Assembly (NCBI RefSeq): GCF_022869165.1
Contig: NZ_CP094929.1
Coordinates: 1,612,001-1,676,000 of the forward strand
Direction of reading: 5' to 3'
Length of the DNA stretch: 64,000 nt
DNA from: Sphaerochaeta associata
GTDB lineage: Bacteria > Spirochaetota > Spirochaetia > Sphaerochaetales > Sphaerochaetaceae
Notes under the pieces: model-generated
What the model was told of the DNA's origin: nothing
The model's input: the letters and a program-made list of their open reading frames with translations, nothing else
Databases searched by the model: none
In this document: positions 8,187 through 49,135 of the stretch, one piece after another
How positions within the stretch are numbered: the stretch's first letter is position 1
Layout: the number at the start of each line of letters is the position of its first letter
Translations under genes and position numbers: made by a program

Positions 8187-8868
8187 AGTATTATCCCTGA
8201 AGCAGGTTTCCAAAAGCTTTCCGGCAACCCTCAGGGGGGGGCAGCCCATCCACATTCTCCAGCAGGTGGATCTTTCACTGTCCGACTCCACCAGTGTCGC
8301 TATCACAGGGCGAAGCGGAAGCGGAAAATCGACGCTTCTGCAAATAAGCGCAGGGTTGCTTTCGTGTGACAGCGGGCAGGTGATTTTTGAGAATCGGGAA
8401 CTCTCGACGCTCGATGACGTGAGGCTGAGCATGCTGCGCTGCAGGCGGATGGGCTTCATCTTCCAAAGCAGCCTCCTGCTTGATGATTTCAATGCCCTTG
8501 AGAATGTGCAGATTCCCGCCATGATCGCCGGTTGTTCGGAGAAAGAGGCACAAAAACGTGCATTGAACCTACTGCAAACCGTCGGGCTTGCTGACAGGTT
8601 GTACCATACCAGCGACCAGCTTTCAGGAGGTGAGCGCCAGCGGGTAGCCATTGCACGGGCTTTGGTGAATGAACCTGCGGTAATCTTTGCAGATGAACCA
8701 ACGGGTTCGCTGGATGAACGGAACGCCCAGCTGGTGGAGGACCTCCTGCTCAATTTGGTGGCAGAGCGCAAGGTGGCTCTGATGCTCATCACCCACAACA
8801 ACGTTTTCGCAGCTCGTTGTGACTTCGTGTACCATCTGCATAACAGAAATCTGGAGGTGGATGCTTGA
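8170..8868 (+). CDS. lolD: LolD/MacB-type ABC transporter ATP-binding protein
   Basis: A 232 aa ATPase energising the two flanking FtsX-type permeases. Visible motifs are Walker A GRSGSGKST, the Q-loop FQSSLLLDDFN, signature LSGGERQRVAIARAL, Walker B VIFADEPTGSLDE and the switch His in LITHN. ATG 8170 is favoured: GGAGA at 8156-8160 is nine bases upstream, while the in-frame TTG at 8164 is too close to it. The sequence is of the LolD/FtsE/MacB branch. The name lolD rests on context (permease genes on both sides) and fits lipoprotein release; a MacB-like export role is the alternative. Confidence 0.85.
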   Translation: MMKSSEVLSLKQVSKSFPATLRGGQPIHILQQVDLSLSDSTSVAITGRSGSGKSTLLQISAGLLSCDSGQVIFENRELSTLDDVRLSMLRCRRMGFIFQSSLLLDDFNALENVQIPAMIAGCSEKEAQKRALNLLQTVGLADRLYHTSDQLSGGERQRVAIARALVNEPAVIFADEPTGSLDERNAQLVEDLLLNLVAERKVALMLITHNNVFAARCDFVYHLHNRNLEVDA

Positions 8869-10037
8869 AAGGTTCCCTCTTTCACCTCATGGTCCTGCGA
8901 AAGCTTGGATATCGAGGAAGTCGAGCAGCAAAAAAACGAATACTGTTCAACATTCTGCTGATCAGCTTGGTCGTAGCTTCCTTGGTCTTTGCCCAGATAT
9001 TTGTCGTGTCCATGAGTCGCGGCATAGCCGACAAGTATGCCCTGCTAGGGAACGGGCACTTGCAGATTCATGAGCATACCGGTCTGGAACTTGGTCCGAT
9101 TGAAGGCCTTTTGGATACACAACTGGTAGCACAAAGCCATGCGCTCATCTACAGCCCCGAGGCTAACAAGATGGTACGGCTCAAGGGCGTAGGTTCTGAG
9201 TATTTCAATGAAATGAGGCTGGAACAGCTCAGTATGGGAACCCCGGAGGCTGGACAAGCAACCAATCTTCCCCAAATCCTGATAAGTACCACCTTGGCCG
9301 AAGAATTGGGTGTCACGGTCAATGACCGGGTCGCCCTCATGCTGGTAAGTCAGAACAGCATACGGCCCCAATTGTGCGTGATACACAATCTGTACGACTC
9401 CGGATATCAGGAGCTCGATGCCAATCTTGTATTCTGCGACTACGAGCTCGTGCATCGGCTCTTCGGGGGTAAGGAAGAGACGTACTATGAGCTGCTGGTG
9501 GAACAATCACGGATGCAGAGCATCAAGGGCGACCTTCAGATGCAGGGATATTCGGTGACTTCCTGGGATGAGGAGAATTACAGTGTGGCAACCAACCTCA
9601 ATACAAGCCGGCAGGCTGTGTTGGGTGTCATGGTTGTTGTTGCCATTCTTTGCGGTTATTTCATCAGTGAACTGTCCCGGGAACTGGTGGAGGACGATAA
9701 GCACAAGATCGCGATGCTTACGCTCCTCGGGGCAAGAAGAGTATTCATCCGCAAGGTCTATTTCTCAACGGTCATGCTGGTCACCTTGGTATCCATCCTT
9801 GCAGGAACCATGGCGGGGATGTTGCTTGCAAGCAACCTCGGTCCGTTGCTTTCGTACATCGCTGACAAGTCGATTCCCTCCCTTTCCTACTATCTATTGG
9901 ATTTTTCCATCTCCATCCCGGCCTCCGACATCCTGTCAATAATTTTGGTATTGCTTTTTGTCAGCATGATTTCAGTGCAGTGGAGCCTCAGAAGGGTAAA
10001 GGTAATTGAACCTCTTTCCTGTACACACTTTGACTAA
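8865..10037 (+). CDS. FtsX/LolE-type ABC transporter permease
   Basis: A 390 aa permease, the second membrane partner of the LolCDE-like set. It has an N-terminal helix (about 24-45), a long periplasmic domain and three C-terminal helices (starting near VLGVMVVVAILCGYF). The cytoplasmic loop EDDKHKIAMLTLLGARRVFIRK matches the coupling-helix region of this family. The start is TTG 8865, supported by GGAGG (8853-8857) seven bases before it; it overlaps the ATPase stop by 4 bases. The promoter of rnz lies across its stop codon. Confidence 0.85.
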   Translation: MKGSLFHLMVLRKLGYRGSRAAKKRILFNILLISLVVASLVFAQIFVVSMSRGIADKYALLGNGHLQIHEHTGLELGPIEGLLDTQLVAQSHALIYSPEANKMVRLKGVGSEYFNEMRLEQLSMGTPEAGQATNLPQILISTTLAEELGVTVNDRVALMLVSQNSIRPQLCVIHNLYDSGYQELDANLVFCDYELVHRLFGGKEETYYELLVEQSRMQSIKGDLQMQGYSVTSWDEENYSVATNLNTSRQAVLGVMVVVAILCGYFISELSRELVEDDKHKIAMLTLLGARRVFIRKVYFSTVMLVTLVSILAGTMAGMLLASNLGPLLSYIADKSIPSLSYYLLDFSISIPASDILSIILVLLFVSMISVQWSLRRVKVIEPLSCTHFD

Positions 10038-10057
10038 CTACGGTTTTCAGCTATACT
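10030..10057 (+). promoter_or_regulatory. Sigma-70 promoter of rnz, start codon at the predicted +1
   Basis: TTGACT (10030-10035), a 16-base spacer and TATACT (10052-10057). Six bases later comes the A of the rnz ATG, the usual distance from a -10 box to the transcription start. No Shine-Dalgarno sequence lies between, so the mRNA may be leaderless. Confidence 0.7.
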
Positions 10058-10063
10058 GACTGC

Positions 10064-10987
10064 ATGAATTTTGAAGTATTTGTTCTGGGGACCAGCGGCA
10101 TGATGCCTCTTCCCAATAGGTATCTTACCAGCGCGATGGTTCGCCGGGACGGGGAGCTTTTTCTGTTTGACTGCGGAGAGGGAACCCAGGTTTCGCTGAA
10201 GATGTTGAATCTCAAATGGAAAAAAATCCACTCCATATTTATCAGTCATATGCATGCAGACCATGTCACCGGCCTTCCAGGAATCCTGATGCTCTCAAGC
10301 CAGGTCGACCGTAATGAGCCTCTTACCATTTACGGTCCTGCGAAACTCAAGGAGTATATCGACGCCAATCGGCGCATTCTCGATATGTACATCAATTATG
10401 AGATCATCGTGAAGGTTGCAGAGCAGGGAGTCATCCTCGAGACAGAGGATTTCACTGTCTCCGCCTTCCCGTTGCACCATACAAAACCTTGTGTAGGGTA
10501 TGTCATGCAGGAGAAGGACCGCCCCGGTGAATTCCACCCTGATACGGCGCGGCAACTGGGTGTTCCCATGGGTCCGATGTGGGGCAGGCTGCAAAAGGGC
10601 CTTGCGGTAACGCTGGGCGATGGTACGGTCGTAGAAAGTCACCAAGTAATGGGCCAGAAGCGGGAAGGGCGTAAATTCAGCTACGTAACCGATTCAATCT
10701 ATCTTCCTTCCATCGCAGATCATGTGAGAAAAAGCGACCTGTTGCTTTGCGAGGGCATGTTCACCGCCGATATGGCTGAGACGGCTTTTGAGAAAAAGCA
10801 TATGACGGCCGAACATGCTGCGAGGATTGCCAAAGAGGCGGAGGTGGCGCAGCTCGGCCTTTTACACTACAGTCCCCGCTACAGCGACCGTGAACTCAAG
10901 TACTTGCTCAAGGATGCAAAAAAAGTCTTCGGGCCGTCAATTCTGACCAAAGACCGTATGTGTTTTGATATTCCGCTGAAAAGTTAA
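10064..10987 (+). CDS. rnz: Ribonuclease Z (tRNA 3' endonuclease)
   Basis: RNase Z (307 aa) is a zinc metallo-beta-lactamase-fold nuclease that trims the 3' trailer of tRNA precursors lacking an encoded CCA. That fits this genome: neither tRNA in the window encodes CCA. The metal motif HMHADH is at residues 62-67; LHHTKPCVGYV, the Asp in the VTDS segment and the late His in LLHYSPRYSD supply further ligands. The start at MNFEVFVLGTSG matches the conserved family N-terminus. There is no ribosome site; the promoter's expected start point coincides with the ATG. Its stop overlaps the end of the convergent gene by 4 bases. Confidence 0.95.
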   Translation: MNFEVFVLGTSGMMPLPNRYLTSAMVRRDGELFLFDCGEGTQVSLKMLNLKWKKIHSIFISHMHADHVTGLPGILMLSSQVDRNEPLTIYGPAKLKEYIDANRRILDMYINYEIIVKVAEQGVILETEDFTVSAFPLHHTKPCVGYVMQEKDRPGEFHPDTARQLGVPMGPMWGRLQKGLAVTLGDGTVVESHQVMGQKREGRKFSYVTDSIYLPSIADHVRKSDLLLCEGMFTADMAETAFEKKHMTAEHAARIAKEAEVAQLGLLHYSPRYSDRELKYLLKDAKKVFGPSILTKDRMCFDIPLKS

Positions 10988-14345: not shown

Positions 14346-14978
14346 ATGAGTAAAGCAATTATATATACAGGTGGCGGTGCTCCAGCATCCATTCCTTTTG
14401 GATTGGTGCAGAAGGGTGATTACGTCATCGCCGCCGACAGCGGGTATGATACAGCACGCAAGCTCGGCACGCATGTCGACCTGTGTGTCGGCGATTTTGA
14501 CTCCACATCCCTTTCAAATGAAATCCAAAACCGGGTCCATGAAAGAAGTCTTCGTGACAAAGACGAAAGCGATACCGAGTTGGCAATCAAGAAAGCGATC
14601 AGCATGGGGTATGACTCGTATTGTCTTGTGGGTGGAGGAGGCTTTCGAATGGATCACCTGTTTGCAACATTCAGCCTGTTCGACCGGTTTGGCCCCCCCG
14701 ATCTTTGGTATACTGGATACGAGGAAGTACATCTGGTGCGCGGGTACCAGCGTTTCGAAGGTCTGAAGGCAGGGCGGCATGTCAGTCTTTTCCCAACCAG
14801 TTTCACCAAGGAAGCGTTTATAACCGCAAAGCAGTTGCAATGGCCTTTGGAAAACCATCGATTGTCGATGGATACCCTTTCGCTCTCAAACCGCACCACT
14901 GATTCCTTCCTGGATGTATTTGCAAAACAGGGGGGGGTACTGTTTGTCAGCTTCCCGGTTGCAGACAAGCTGCCCTAG
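14346..14978 (+). CDS. thiN: Thiamine diphosphokinase
   Basis: A 210 aa enzyme that transfers pyrophosphate from ATP to thiamine, giving TPP. Diagnostic features are the N-terminal AADSGYDTA, the metal/ATP motif VGDFDST (about residues 48-54), DKDESDTELAI (about 75-85) and the C-terminal beta domain with SLSNRTTDS, a thiamine-contact type segment. The ribosome site GTGAG (about 14336) is weak. The 78 bases upstream show no TPP riboswitch elements. No other thiamine gene is near, so salvage of imported thiamine is a likely use, but that is inference. Confidence 0.9.
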   Translation: MSKAIIYTGGGAPASIPFGLVQKGDYVIAADSGYDTARKLGTHVDLCVGDFDSTSLSNEIQNRVHERSLRDKDESDTELAIKKAISMGYDSYCLVGGGGFRMDHLFATFSLFDRFGPPDLWYTGYEEVHLVRGYQRFEGLKAGRHVSLFPTSFTKEAFITAKQLQWPLENHRLSMDTLSLSNRTTDSFLDVFAKQGGVLFVSFPVADKLP

Positions 14979-14988
14979 ATGCTATTCT
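14959..14988 (+). promoter_or_regulatory. Promoter of the small membrane protein gene, start codon at predicted +1
   Basis: TTGCAG (14959-14964), an 18-base spacer and TATTCT (14983-14988), all inside or just after the end of thiN. The A of the next ATG (14995) is the seventh base after the -10 box and no Shine-Dalgarno sequence is present. The geometry is the same as at rnz and rpe. It is a candidate leaderless promoter, with a weaker -10 box than those two. Confidence 0.45.
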
Positions 14989-14994
14989 CTGTGT

Positions 14995-15336
14995 ATGTTG
15001 CAGACCAGACGATTGCTGGCATTTTCCAGCCGGGTACACACCTATACACTCCTTTTGTATCTGTTTTTCTTTCTTGTGTACCTGCTAGGCAGTTTTTTTT
15101 CAGTAACCGTTGAGTTCGTCACTCTCTTGCAGTTCTTTTTGTATTTGATCAGCTGGACCAGCTTGCTGTTCGGTGTCTGGATATTGGTTTTCTCCTGTAT
15201 CGTATGGGCAGGCGACCGCGTATTTCCCGTCTCATCAGTGCTCCTTACCATCGCAAGAATGTTCTGCATACTTGCCTTGGGCTTTGTGGTGGCCTTGTTG
15301 GAGACGTTGTTCCAGAAGGGGCTGGTGATCAGTTGA
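14995..15336 (+). CDS. Small integral membrane protein, unknown function
   Basis: A 113 aa protein dominated by three hydrophobic helices (about 17-40, 45-70 and 85-105), with a basic N-terminus (MLQTRRLLAFSSR) likely to stay in the cytoplasm. No family motif is recognised. ATG 14995 is the first start after the thiN stop; it has no ribosome site but lies at the predicted transcription start. Its stop is directly abutted by the aroH region (GAATGAGGAG), suggesting co-transcription with chorismate mutase. Confidence 0.6.
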   Translation: MLQTRRLLAFSSRVHTYTLLLYLFFFLVYLLGSFFSVTVEFVTLLQFFLYLISWTSLLFGVWILVFSCIVWAGDRVFPVSSVLLTIARMFCILALGFVVALLETLFQKGLVIS

Positions 15337-31086: not shown

Positions 31087-31923
31087 TCACTCCTCATGCT
31101 GTAAACGCCGCTCGGCTTTGATCTCTTCCCAAAGCCGGTCCATCTCAGCAAGGTTCTCTTGGTTCAGCTGCACGCCTTCAGCTTGCGCTCGTTGGTAGAG
31201 GGCATTGAACCGACTCCTCATTTTTTGATTCGAGCGGTGCAGGGCCAAGGAAGGATTGAAGCCCAAAAAGCGGCAAAGGTTCACCGCTGAGAAAAGCAGG
31301 TCTCCCAATTCCATCTCAAGATCCTCCCTCTCATCGCGGGGATTCCTATATGCTTCAACGACTTCAGCAAGCTCTTCCTGCACCTTGTCGAACACTCCTT
31401 GGGCATCGGGCCAGTCGAAGCCTACCTTGCGGATTTTCTTCTGGATTTCATTGGCCATTTCCAAGGGGGGAAGGGAAGGGGGGACACGACTGAAGAAATC
31501 ATCCTTTTGATGGGTTTTCCCTTCAACATCAACTTTAATGGCATTCCATACATCTATCACTTCACTGCTGTTTGCAACTTTCTGGTCGGAAAAGACATGG
31601 GGATGCCTGCGGATCAACTTCTCGCACACCAGATTGAGTGCTTCGATGCCGGCAGCAGGATCTGTTTCCTGATGCATTTCCAATAGCATCATTGCATTGA
31701 GAAGTACATCGCCGAGCTCCTCGCTCTGTCCTTCCTTGTCATCGGAAAGCACTGCATCAAGGTATTCATACGTCTCATCGATGAGGTGTGTCGAGACTTG
31801 TTTGGGGCTCTGCTCCCTGTCCCAGGGACAGCCTTGCTCGCTGCGAAGCAGGGTGACAATTGCAAACAACTGCATCAGGGCATCCTGAAGGGTGGTTTTC
31901 TTTTCATAGGTGAAGTCAATCAT
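31087..31923 (-). CDS. mazG: Nucleoside triphosphate pyrophosphohydrolase MazG
   Basis: A 278 aa protein with two MazG domains, hydrolysing NTPs to NMP and PPi. The first has CPWDREQSPKQVSTHLIDETYEYLDAV and EELGDVLLNAMML; the second has GFDWPDAQGVFDKVQEELAEVVEA and LEMELGDLLFSAVNL. The acidic EExxE/ExxD metal ligands are present. ATG 31923 fits the family start; longer upstream reading is not family-like. There is no ribosome site; a promoter TTCTCA (31959-31954), 17 bases, TATACT (31936-31931) puts the start of transcription at or one base before the ATG. The BusR-like gene follows directly. Confidence 0.92.
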   Translation of the reverse strand: MIDFTYEKKTTLQDALMQLFAIVTLLRSEQGCPWDREQSPKQVSTHLIDETYEYLDAVLSDDKEGQSEELGDVLLNAMMLLEMHQETDPAAGIEALNLVCEKLIRRHPHVFSDQKVANSSEVIDVWNAIKVDVEGKTHQKDDFFSRVPPSLPPLEMANEIQKKIRKVGFDWPDAQGVFDKVQEELAEVVEAYRNPRDEREDLEMELGDLLFSAVNLCRFLGFNPSLALHRSNQKMRSRFNALYQRAQAEGVQLNQENLAEMDRLWEEIKAERRLQHEE

Positions 31924-31930
31924 GTGTACG

Positions 31931-31959
31931 AGTATACCTGTTAACGGCAATCTTGAGAA
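31931..31959 (-). promoter_or_regulatory. Promoter of mazG, start codon near predicted +1
   Basis: On the minus strand TTCTCA (31959-31954), 17 bases and TATACT (31936-31931). Seven bases separate the -10 box from ATG 31923 and there is no Shine-Dalgarno sequence. Confidence 0.55.
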
Positions 31960-37367: not shown

Positions 37368-39083
37368 TTAGTTGTCTTCCCTATCCTCATCCTTGTAACG
37401 CATCATGTCTGCAAGGGAGAAGGTATCACTGTCATCATCCTCATGGATGTATTTTGCAATCTCGGACTGCTGGGAACGCTTGACCATCTCCTTGATGGAG
37501 AGTGAAAGCTTCTGGGTAGTCGGGTTGCATTCAACAACCATGGCAGTGATGGGATCACCAACGTTGAACTTCTTGAGGGCCTCATCGGTATACTCTTCAT
37601 CGGGTCCGACCAAGTTGTACTTGCTGATCAGTCCTTCAATGTCACCCATGACCTTCACGAATACGCCAAAGTCAGTCACATTGGTGATGACACCGCTGAT
37701 GGTGCTGAACTTCGGATAGTCGTGACGAAGAGTCTGCCAGGGATTGCCCTCGAGCTGCTTCACGCCAAGGCGGATTCTGCGGTTGTCCGGTTCGACACGG
37801 ATTACCACAACGTCGATCACATCACCTTCGGCGCAGAAGGAAGCCATGTTCTTGACTTTCTTGGTCCAGGAAATGTCATCAATGTGCAAAAAGCCGTCGA
37901 TACCTTCCTCGAGATTTACAAAGGCACCACTGTTGGTGATCTTCACAACCGGCTTGGAAAGTGTCATGCCGACAGGATAGCGCTCCACAATGGTATCCCA
38001 GGGGTTTTCCTCAAGCTGCTTGAGACCCAAGGAAACACGCTTCTTGTCCAAGTCATACCCAAGAACCTTTGCCTCGACGACATCGCCGACATCCAGGACG
38101 TCCTTGGGGTTGTTGACCCGCTTGGTCCAGGAGAGCTCGGAAATGTGGGCAAGGCCCTCGATGCCGGGCTCGATCTCGATGAATGCACCAAAGGTGGTAA
38201 TCTTGGTTACCGGTGCCTTGATGGTATCACCGACGTTGTACTTCTGCTCGAAGGTCGTCCAGGGGTCTTCCTGCATGTGCTTGAGCGACAGGTTGATCTT
38301 CTGCGTCTCGGGATCGATGTTGATGAGTCTGAGCTGTACAACCTGACCCTTCTTGACAAAATCCTTAGGACGGGTGACATGGCCCCAGCTCATGTCATTG
38401 ATATGCAACAGTCCATCAAAACCACCAAGGTCAATGAATGCCCCGAAGGAGGTAAAGGACTTAACCACACCTTCGACGACGTCACCGATCTGTACGGTCG
38501 AGAAGAACTTCTCTTTATTTTCTTTGATTTTCTGGTCAAGATACTCACGTCTGTTCACCACGCTCTTGAGCTTGGTGCCGCCATGGAACTTGTCGATGAT
38601 GAAGTAATCAGTTACTCCGATCAATGTTTCCGGTTCCTCGACTCTCACAACGTCAGCCTTGGAGAGGGGGCAGAACCCCTTGTACTCGCCTCCGAGATCG
38701 ACCTCGAAGCCACCCTTGATTACTTTCTCAAATTTGCCCAAAACGGGAGATCTGCTTTCAGCAGCAGCCTTCAGTTCATCGGTGCGTTCCTTGAAATCGG
38801 CGCGCTTCTTGGAAACGACGATCTGACCGCCCTTTCCTTCCTTATTGATGATGACGACTTTTACTTCCTCACCAACTTCGGGAATAGATGCGAACTCATC
38901 ACGAGAGATGCGACCCTCGCTCTTGTAACCGACATCCACGAATACATACTCGTTGTTTACCTGGACAACAGTACCGGCCACGAGCTGACCGTCTTCGATT
39001 CCATCAAGAGATTTAAGATACTCCTCCTGCAGCATATCCTGCATTTTGGTCTTCTTTTCATCCATTTCTTGTTCTTCAGCCAC
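37368..39083 (-). CDS. rpsA: Ribosomal protein S1
   Basis: S1 (571 aa) binds mRNA on the 30S subunit and unfolds structured leaders. Six S1 repeats can be seen; the last four carry the typical F/Y-G-A-F core (GAFIDLGGFDGLLHINDMSWGH, GAFIEIEPGIEGLAHISELSW, GAFVNLEEGIDGFLHIDDISW, GVFVKVMGDIEGLISKYNLV). The start is GTG 39083, seven bases after AGGAG. It follows cmk, the usual gene order. The first two repeats are less conserved. Confidence 0.96.
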   Translation of the reverse strand: MAEEQEMDEKKTKMQDMLQEEYLKSLDGIEDGQLVAGTVVQVNNEYVFVDVGYKSEGRISRDEFASIPEVGEEVKVVIINKEGKGGQIVVSKKRADFKERTDELKAAAESRSPVLGKFEKVIKGGFEVDLGGEYKGFCPLSKADVVRVEEPETLIGVTDYFIIDKFHGGTKLKSVVNRREYLDQKIKENKEKFFSTVQIGDVVEGVVKSFTSFGAFIDLGGFDGLLHINDMSWGHVTRPKDFVKKGQVVQLRLINIDPETQKINLSLKHMQEDPWTTFEQKYNVGDTIKAPVTKITTFGAFIEIEPGIEGLAHISELSWTKRVNNPKDVLDVGDVVEAKVLGYDLDKKRVSLGLKQLEENPWDTIVERYPVGMTLSKPVVKITNSGAFVNLEEGIDGFLHIDDISWTKKVKNMASFCAEGDVIDVVVIRVEPDNRRIRLGVKQLEGNPWQTLRHDYPKFSTISGVITNVTDFGVFVKVMGDIEGLISKYNLVGPDEEYTDEALKKFNVGDPITAMVVECNPTTQKLSLSIKEMVKRSQQSEIAKYIHEDDDSDTFSLADMMRYKDEDREDN

Positions 39084-43315: not shown

Positions 43316-43753
43316 TCATGCTTCCAACACAAAGGTAACCGGTCCGTCATTCATATACGAAACGTCCATATGCGCACCAAAGCGGCCGGCGGCCACTGAA
43401 TATCCCATCGATTTGAAGAGTAGGAGAGCTTCTTCATACAAGGCCTCTGCCTCCTTTGGGTCGGCCGCATCATCATATGAGGGGCGATTTCCCTTGCGAA
43501 GGTTGGCAAGCAAGGTGAATTGGCTGACTACCAAAAGTTGTCCACCAACTTCATCCAACGCCTTGTTCATTTTGCCCATCTCATCGGAAAAAACACGAAG
43601 CTTGACAATTTTTCGGCACAACCAGGATAGGTTCTGCTTCGAATCTCCCTTGCCTATCCCCAAATACACCAACAAGCCATGGTCGATGCAGCCCACCACT
43701 TCCCGATCAACGACAACCTGAGCATGCTTTACCCGTTGGATAACAGCTTTCAT
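43316..43753 (-). CDS. dtd: D-aminoacyl-tRNA deacylase
   Basis: A 145 aa DTD enzyme that removes D-amino acids (and glycine mischarged on tRNA-Ala) from tRNA. The two signature elements are SQFTLLANLRKGNRPSY with the catalytic Thr region, and the C-terminal NDGPVTFVLEA. The length is the family standard. It is coupled to rpe by a 4-base overlap. Confidence 0.95.
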   Translation of the reverse strand: MKAVIQRVKHAQVVVDREVVGCIDHGLLVYLGIGKGDSKQNLSWLCRKIVKLRVFSDEMGKMNKALDEVGGQLLVVSQFTLLANLRKGNRPSYDDAADPKEAEALYEEALLLFKSMGYSVAAGRFGAHMDVSYMNDGPVTFVLEA

Positions 43754-44418
43754 ACCCTTGCGTGTTCCACCATCGCCTGGACAAAAGAAAAACGGTCCTG
43801 TTCACAGAAAAAGGCACTGCCGCAGACAGCCACATCAGCTCCCAGTCTTGCAATGGTTCCCACCGTCGACAGATTGATGCCGCCGTCGACGCTGATCAAA
43901 TAGTCGTATCCTTTCTTCTCCCTGATTGAAGCCAGTTCGCTGATTTTCTCCAAGGTTGAAGGAATCAGGCTCTGGCCGCCGAATCCGGGGTTGACAGTCA
44001 TGATGAGGATAAGGTCGACCATGTCCAGGACCGGAAGAATCGACGTGACCGAGGAGGAAGGGATAAGCGATACGCCGGCTTTGCATCCGCTGTCCTTGAT
44101 CATCTGCAACGTCCTGTGAAGATGCACCGAAGCCTCGGCATGCACGGTAATGTAATCACTGCCGCTCTGCGCAAAGTGGGCAACATATCGTTCAGGTTCA
44201 TTGACCATCAGATGGGTGTCAAAAACCAGATCGGAGTGAGGACGCAAGTCTTTGATGAACTTGGGGCCGAAGGTGATGTTGGGTACAAACATGCCGTCCA
44301 TGACATCGAGATGAACCCATTGAGCACCACTTTTGTTGATGCTTTCCACTTCCTCGGCGGTACGGGAAAAATCAGATGAAAGCATGCTTGGTGCGATAAT
44401 CAGGGATGTTTTTTCCAT
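43750..44418 (-). CDS. rpe: Ribulose-phosphate 3-epimerase
   Basis: A 222 aa TIM-barrel enzyme of the pentose phosphate pathway, interconverting ribulose-5-phosphate and xylulose-5-phosphate. IAPSMLSSDF, HLDVMDGMFVPNITFGP (metal His and Asp), DTHLMV, MTVNPGFGGQ and ISVDGGIN are diagnostic. There is no usable ribosome site: the GGAG lies only one base before the ATG. The promoter's predicted start of transcription is the A of the ATG itself. Confidence 0.96.
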   Translation of the reverse strand: MEKTSLIIAPSMLSSDFSRTAEEVESINKSGAQWVHLDVMDGMFVPNITFGPKFIKDLRPHSDLVFDTHLMVNEPERYVAHFAQSGSDYITVHAEASVHLHRTLQMIKDSGCKAGVSLIPSSSVTSILPVLDMVDLILIMTVNPGFGGQSLIPSTLEKISELASIREKKGYDYLISVDGGINLSTVGTIARLGADVAVCGSAFFCEQDRFSFVQAMVEHARV

Positions 44419-44424
44419 ACTCCA

Positions 44425-44453
44425 GTTATAGCAGGTAGAAAGAGGTTTTGCAA
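44425..44453 (-). promoter_or_regulatory. Promoter of rpe, start codon at predicted +1
   Basis: On the minus strand TTGCAA (44453-44448), 17 bases and TATAAC (44430-44425). Exactly six bases (TGGAGT) separate the -10 box from ATG 44418, so transcription should begin at the start codon. Confidence 0.72.
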
Positions 44454-47366: not shown

Positions 47367-47375
47367 CCGATTCAA

Positions 47376-47407
47376 GGCCCCGGTTGAAAAAAAGACTGGG
47401 GCCTTTG
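47376..47407 (+). terminator. Terminator after greA
   Basis: A strong stem GGCCCCGGT (47376-47384) with ACTGGGGCC (47395-47403), then TTTGTATTG. One G-T pair and an A-rich loop are present. Confidence 0.8.
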
Positions 47408-47431
47408 TATTGTCCATGGTAGTATGATTGC

Positions 47432-49135
47432 ATGCAAAACCGCTATCCCATTGATGCCGATCACCTATTGCCTGAATACCCCCGACCGCAAATGGTACGT
47501 GCTTCCTACGTTTCCCTCAATGGGATGTGGGAGTGTGCTATAACGGACGATCCGGGAATCCCAGACTTTTTCCCCTACTCAATATTGGTACCCTTCTCCC
47601 CTGAAACCAGGCTTTCCGGCATGGAAAGGGGCGTTGGCGTCAACCAGACGTTGACCTATCGAAGAACCTTCCGTTTGTCACTGGAAACAGACAAACGAAC
47701 GCTGTTACATTTCGAGGCCGTAGACCACAGCTGCACTGTCTATCTCAATGGTGTTTGCGTCGGCAGCCATCGCGGGGGATACCTCCCCTTCCACTTTGAC
47801 ATCACCGTAGCGGTGAAGCAGGACAATGAATTGATCGTGCAGGTCAACGATCCCTGTGACAGCCAAAGCATCATCCGTGGGAAACAGGCCCAGGAGGCCT
47901 CGGGAATCTTTTACAGCGGACAAAGCGGCATCCACCAAAGTGTTTGGCTTGAACAGGTGAGCCGGCACTACATCAAAGGGTTGGTCATCGCAAGCAATCT
48001 CGAACAACGATGTTGGCATGTAACCGTAGAAGCCGACCAATCCGGGCTTGAGGTTGTTGTCTCATACCTTGATGGATCAAGAAAGGTGAAGGGATTGAGC
48101 GGCCAGCGTCTCAACTGCCAGGTGGATGAAGTCCATCCTTGGAGCCCCGAGGATCCGTATTTATACACCTTCACCGTCACCATGGCCGATGATTGCGTTC
48201 ATAGCTATGTAGGCCTTCGCAGTTTTTCGGTCACAGATGGTCGATTGTACCTGAACGGCAAACCGTACTATCATCATGGCATCCTCGACCAAGGGTATTG
48301 GCCTTACAGTCTCTATACGCCTCCTTCAGACCAAGCCATGATCGACGATCTGTTGTTGATCAAAAAGTTGGGTTTCAACATGGTACGCAAGCATGCCAAG
48401 GTCGAAAACCTTCGTTGGTATCACCACTGCGACAGACTGGGTTTGCTCGTATGGCAGGACATGGTAAGCGGAGGGCGAAAACCGTTCCAACCGATTATGA
48501 GCGGTCCCCTCTTCCTGAAAAGATTCTCAGTCCCCGATTCTCTCTATCCTTTATTGGGAAGTCAGGATGAGCAGTATCGAAAGGATTTTGAAGAACAATT
48601 GACACAGATGATTCAAACCCTCTCCAACTGCGTCAGTATAGCCATGTGGGTCATTTTCAATGAAGGATGGGGCCAGTTCGATACGCAACGAATGCTGGAT
48701 TTGGTGCAGTCTCTGGACAGCTCTCGTACCATAGATCCTGCAAGCGGATGGTATGATCAAAAAATCGGCGGTTTCTGCTCACGCCACGTCTACTTCAAAG
48801 CCTATCGTCATACTCCCGACTCCAACGGCAGGGCTGTCATCCTTTCTGAATTCGGTGGATACGTATACCGTGAAATCGGACACGATGAGCAGACAAAAAT
48901 CTTCGGCTACAAGAAATTCTCCGACCGCAAAGCCTTTGGAGAAGCGTTCTTCGACCTCTATGCCAATCAGATTGTTCCAGCCAAGCAACAAGGCCTTGCC
49001 GCTTCCGTATACACGCAATTTTCCGATGTACAGCAGGAACTGAACGGCTTGGTGACCTTCGACCGGCTCTCAGTCAAGGTGGATGAGGTTGTCGCCTTGC
49101 AGGTTGCCGCCATGCTTCTTGGAACGCAACAGTGA
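47432..49135 (+). CDS. Glycoside hydrolase family 2 enzyme
   Basis: A 567 aa GH2 protein (beta-galactosidase/beta-glucuronidase clan), retaining mechanism. An N-terminal jelly-roll (about 1-170, with DHSCTVYLNGVCVGSHRGGYLPF) and an immunoglobulin-like domain precede the TIM barrel. The acid/base Glu is in IFNEGWGQ and the nucleophile Glu in VILSEFGGY. No signal peptide is seen, so it acts in the cytoplasm on imported oligosaccharides or glycosides. There is no ribosome site; an extended -10 box (TGG-TAGTAT, 47417-47425) places the start of transcription at the ATG. Its last 66 bases overlap murJ on the other strand. Confidence 0.9.
   Translation: MQNRYPIDADHLLPEYPRPQMVRASYVSLNGMWECAITDDPGIPDFFPYSILVPFSPETRLSGMERGVGVNQTLTYRRTFRLSLETDKRTLLHFEAVDHSCTVYLNGVCVGSHRGGYLPFHFDITVAVKQDNELIVQVNDPCDSQSIIRGKQAQEASGIFYSGQSGIHQSVWLEQVSRHYIKGLVIASNLEQRCWHVTVEADQSGLEVVVSYLDGSRKVKGLSGQRLNCQVDEVHPWSPEDPYLYTFTVTMADDCVHSYVGLRSFSVTDGRLYLNGKPYYHHGILDQGYWPYSLYTPPSDQAMIDDLLLIKKLGFNMVRKHAKVENLRWYHHCDRLGLLVWQDMVSGGRKPFQPIMSGPLFLKRFSVPDSLYPLLGSQDEQYRKDFEEQLTQMIQTLSNCVSIAMWVIFNEGWGQFDTQRMLDLVQSLDSSRTIDPASGWYDQKIGGFCSRHVYFKAYRHTPDSNGRAVILSEFGGYVYREIGHDEQTKIFGYKKFSDRKAFGEAFFDLYANQIVPAKQQGLAASVYTQFSDVQQELNGLVTFDRLSVKVDEVVALQVAAMLLGTQQ

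Follow-up and report, generated by a model that had tools for sequence, protein, structure and literature searches.

Leaderless transcriptomes are known from Mycobacterium and Deinococcus, and the lambda cI and TetR repressors are made from leaderless mRNAs. For the Spirochaetes, Zheng et al. (2011; PMC3160421) predicted TA-led leaderless genes in 6 of 18 genomes, where they amount to 1.8-6.9% of genes (mean 3.9%). In Leptospira interrogans, differential RNA sequencing (dRNA-seq) identified ~440 mRNAs with a 5'UTR of <10 nt, about half of them with one of <2 nt (PMC5243855), and this is the one 5'-end map that we found for the phylum. Our literature search returned no paper on leaderless genes, nor any 5'-end map, in Sphaerochaeta.

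Here, we analysed a window of 64,000 nt from Sphaerochaeta associata (bases 1612001-1676000 of a 3.55 Mb single-contig genome), in which an earlier note had pointed to several genes with a promoter directly in front of the start codon. As in Mycobacterium, Deinococcus, lambda cI and TetR, the -10 box of these genes is fused to the start codon, and several of the candidates that we list are small repressors; unlike in Mycobacterium and Deinococcus, the share of genes concerned is smaller and GTG starts are not detectably used in the S. associata genome. The candidates also resemble the TA-led genes of Zheng et al. (PMC3160421), with a TANNNT -10 box ~12 bp upstream of the start and no Shine-Dalgarno (SD) sequence, and their share of ~5% of genes falls in the range of 1.8-6.9% given there for Spirochaetes. 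Orthologue conservation and a frame control are added here. Leptospira belongs to the same phylum but to a distant lineage, and its leaderless mRNAs were mapped, whereas those of Sphaerochaeta are deduced from sequence (PMC5243855).

Promoter layout at five genes of the window

The five genes all carry a sigma-70-type -10 box followed by 6 nt (rnz, a small membrane gene, rpe and a GH2 gene) or 7 nt (mazG) and an in-frame ATG. Every sequence quoted for these sites in the earlier note was found in place, including that of GH2, which had been put forward as a possible fifth case. We saw no usable SD site before the ATG of any of the five genes, although the claim that no such sequence exists has to be qualified at rpe, where a GGAG stands 1 base before the ATG, a spacing too short for it to function. 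That most other genes have clear SD sites holds only roughly, for ~31 of 53 starts in the window in a simple count based on approximate start positions.

The putative leaderless ORF of rnz (ribonuclease Z; 10064..10987, plus strand) matches NCBIfam TIGR02651 (E 1e-104) from residue 4, and ATG 10064 is thus the true N-terminus. Its -10 box TATACT (10052..10057, plus strand) is intergenic and ends 6 nt before the ATG. The -35 box TTGACT (10030..10035, plus strand) is separated from it by a 16-nt spacer, is kept in the genus and overlaps the last codon and the TAA stop (10035-10037) of the upstream ORF; the two boxes together have 10 of 12 matches. The rpe gene (ribulose-phosphate 3-epimerase; 43750..44418, minus strand), also a putative leaderless ORF, matches NCBIfam TIGR01163 (E 7e-77), again from residue 4. 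It is preceded by a TG-extended -10 box, TATAAC (44425..44430, minus strand), 6 nt before ATG 44418 and, with a spacer of 17, by the -35 box TTGCAA (44448..44453, minus strand). The -35 boxes of rnz and rpe are good matches, while those of mazG and the small membrane gene are moderate. At mazG (nucleoside triphosphate pyrophosphohydrolase; 31087..31923, minus strand; NCBIfam NF007113, E 5e-74), likewise putatively leaderless, the -35 box TTCTCA (31954..31959, minus strand) stands 17 nt from the -10 box TATACT (31931..31936, minus strand), which ends 7 nt before ATG 31923.

The small membrane gene (14995..15336, plus strand) is a putative leaderless ORF starting at ATG 14995 and encodes a 113-aa hydrophobic protein without a match in Pfam or NCBIfam. 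Its -10 box TATTCT (14983..14988, plus strand), replaced by TACCAT or TAGGAT in relatives, is TG-extended and lies 6 nt before the ATG; the -35 box TTGCAG (14959..14964, plus strand; spacer 18) is inside the end of the upstream gene. The protein is conserved, and among the genomes searched it occurs in the genus only; the gene follows one that, from a reading of its sequence, is thiamine pyrophosphokinase-like. The GH2-family glycosidase (47432..49135, plus strand), a putative leaderless ORF, is beta-glucuronidase/beta-galactosidase-like, an assignment below curated cut-offs and made at the family level only. No -35 box is evident there, and the extended -10 box TGG-TAGTAT (47417..47425, plus strand), 6 nt before ATG 47432, stands in for it. 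Just upstream of this promoter is an intrinsic-terminator-like hairpin (47374..47405, plus strand). As its end lies 27 nt before the ATG, there is little room for a long read-through leader.

A frame-specific peak across the genome

The genome was sampled in 60 stretches of 20 kb which, with the window, make up 1.264 Mb (35.6% of the genome). Genes were called with a simple coding-potential caller of our own that is blind to upstream signals, so that starts are approximate, and the gap was defined as the number of nt between the end of the -10 box and the start codon. A composite promoter score, which adds a -35 and TG-extension score to the -10 box, peaks at gap 6 (42 cases) and gap 7 (20 cases) against 3.0 per gap elsewhere in this sample. 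The excess corresponds to 56 of 1,030 genes, or ~157 +/- 43 genes genome-wide (~5%), and about one tenth (some 6) of the 62 listed candidates are expected by chance. Strict -10 boxes before in-frame ATGs near gene starts number 31 at gap 6 and 24 at gap 7 vs ~6 at neighbouring gaps, and the sampled off-frame ATGs give 4/4 and 2/0 at gaps 6 and 7. GTG or TTG starts in the same sample are without a gap 6-7 peak.

An enrichment over shuffled sequence, which the earlier note had proposed to look for, is clearly present: in the 35.6% genome sample, 34 SD-less ATG starts have a box at gap 6 or 7, vs 3.7 +/- 1.9 in 300 dinucleotide shuffles (maximum 10). Compared with other gaps in the sample, this excess has a Poisson P of 5e-21. 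None of the 220 sampled SD starts has a box at gap 6 or 7. In the window alone, 3 of the 15 SD-less starts found by the caller have such a box vs 0.15 expected. A -35 match of at least 4 of 6 accompanies 53% of gap 6-7 boxes, vs 28% at gaps 12-30. A pattern search of the whole genome agrees with the sample, as TATAMT-6-ATG occurs 53 times vs 25 for the reversed control. Sampled SD genes have a weaker -10 peak of their own ~20-22 nt ahead of the start, which corresponds to a minimal leader of ~14-16 nt.

Conservation within the genus and peaks in relatives

An alignment of 23 same-genus rnz loci, that of S. associata included, shows TATACT followed by 6 or 7 nt and an invariant ATG in every locus, and the intervening bases vary. 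Orthologues of mazG retain TATACT with 6-7 nt, mostly 7, and those of rpe retain TTGCA ... TATAA(C/A) with 6-7 nt. The small membrane gene keeps -10 boxes such as TATTCT, TACCAT and TAGGAT, and GH2 keeps TAGTAT, TAGGAT or TATGAT, in both cases with 6 nt and mostly TG-extended. When columns are anchored on the ATG, mazG and GH2 have their conservation maximum on the -10 box, where rnz is also highly conserved; in rpe and the small membrane gene, the best-conserved windows are on or near the -35 box. As the -35 boxes of rnz and the small membrane gene share sequence with the end of the upstream gene, their conservation proves little, unlike that of the -10 boxes of these two genes, which are intergenic. 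In a synteny test of the window, boxes that are kept in every genome are commonest at gaps 6-7; rpe was omitted from this automated output and its conservation rests on direct reading of orthologues. In genome G001, the rpe locus (L096) lacks one base directly behind the ATG, so that the usual start of rpe is out of frame; this is either a sequencing error or a shifted start. In a small check of sampled candidates against a congener, G002, 6 of 6 gap 6-7 boxes are kept, although 2 look like conserved coding sequence.

Relatives of rnz in the named genomes belong to Sphaerochaeta and close Spirochaetales; one same-genus relative, G003, agrees with S. halotolerans in the position and strand of its match. 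Among 80 such loci, nearly all from spirochaetes, 49 have TANNNT at gap 6 and 14 have it at gap 7, with 0-8 at other gaps; as the loci are related, these 63 cases are not independent events. The -35 region varies from clade to clade (TTTGACTAA, TTGCAACAAGATTG, CTTTTCAC and others), and the spacing between the -10 box and the start thus outlives the promoter sequence. The start is GTG in 20 of the 80 loci, 19 of which have a box at gap 6 or 7. GTG starts of rnz at 6-7 nt from the -10 box are found in many other Sphaerochaetaceae-like genomes (L198, L202 and L213-L231), yet the S. associata genome has no GTG peak.

The same gap 6-7 peak is present in G002 (15 vs 2.2 expected; ~3% of genes) and in Sediminispirochaeta smaragdinae (formerly Spirochaeta; G059), with 24 vs 1.9 (~7% of genes), so that the class is not confined to the lineage of S. 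associata. The suggestion that it is a trait of this lineage does not hold, as it is no less frequent in S. smaragdinae and has been mapped experimentally in Leptospira (PMC5243855).

Functions of the candidates

About 45 of the candidates could be annotated. They include enzymes (RNase Z, CCA-adding enzyme, MetRS, MutL, DprA, DHQ synthase, signal peptidase, acetyltransferases), small regulators (CsoR-like, PadR, ArsR, CI-like, AraC) and others, such as BirA-like and BioY proteins, transporters and an IS transposase. Their functions are mixed, with no shared pathway seen, and the only mild theme is that of small regulators and tRNA/DNA enzymes. The sole common element seen is an ordinary sigma-70-type promoter. 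A functional regulon is not evident among the annotated candidates. The proposal that leaderless translation is regulated here finds no support, given these mixed functions and the lack of any sign of regulation among the tests run. At locus L083, a gene for a BirA-like biotin ligase/repressor (8847-9818, minus strand) and a BioY transporter gene (9902-10441, plus strand) are divergent, and both look leaderless.

Discussion

In sigma-70 promoters the -10 hexamer ends ~6 bases before +1. Gaps of 6-7 nt therefore put +1 on the A of the ATG or one base before it, and the 'fixed distance' calls for no mechanism of its own. Judging from promoter placement, we consider it probable (about 0.88) that the named genes give rise to leaderless mRNAs. 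In this reading, a housekeeping (sigma-70/SigA-type) promoter would place +1 on the A of the ATG or within ~1 base of it, and a 70S ribosome with fMet-tRNA would start directly at the 5'-terminal AUG, without SD contact. The 6-7 nt spacing, the restriction to ATG and the mutual exclusion with SD sites are all predictions of leaderless initiation. The proposed class stands as far as promoter position is concerned, given a frame-specific, ATG-only peak, conservation of the gap among orthologues and its recurrence in two relatives; the actual 5' end, leader-free translation and the 70S route are inferred. Additional upstream promoters or read-through may give longer leaders at the named genes, a possibility largely excluded at GH2 only.

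The SD-less starts do not stem from an altered ribosome or a lost SD system. The 16S anti-SD GGATCACCTCCTTT and bS21 are present in the genome, as is a full-length S1-like ribosomal protein in the window (37491-39038, minus strand), just under the curated cut-off of the rpsA model. The SD system is thus intact and operates side by side with the leaderless class.

The alternative that survives best, although we regard it as improbable, is that RNA polymerase starts at a purine located a few bases upstream of the ATG and that the resulting mRNAs, with very short leaders of 1-5 nt, are treated by the ribosome as near-leaderless. Gap 7 has nearly half as many cases as gap 6, the box stands at gaps 8-11 in some rnz relatives, and 5' ends 1-5 nt upstream are indistinguishable from zero by sequence. 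However, the peak stands out sharply at gap 6 and has dropped to near background by 9-10, and the usual +1 at gap 6 is the A itself. It is very unlikely that the true start codons lie downstream, with these ATGs inside a normal leader: starts were indeed called from sequence by a home-made caller, but the agreement of rnz and rpe with their families from residue 4, the retention of the ATG across the genus and the limitation of the peak to in-frame ATGs all speak against wrong start codons. Least likely of all is a chance origin in start regions that are AT-richer than genes and in which single hexamers are common, since shuffles, other gaps, off-frame ATGs and orthologue conservation all speak against it and rule it out for the class, although a single listed candidate may still be due to chance.

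Leaderless genes of this kind are already known in bacteria, other spirochaetes included, and the case of Sphaerochaeta is a well-supported further example. It is conceivable, if doubtful, that long-term selection acts on leaderlessness itself at particular genes of Sphaerochaetaceae, because the rnz promoter turns over (in its -35 boxes, and between TATACT, TATAGT and TAGTAT at -10) while the distance stays at 6-7 nt. If true, this would suggest a role in translation, such as SD-independent output under conditions that limit normal initiation. With ~5% of its genes placed for leaderless translation and conservation at the level of orthologues, this free-living spirochaete genus offers a class that aids start-codon annotation and a ready list of genes for asking why some genes hold leaderless starts over the long term despite an intact SD system.
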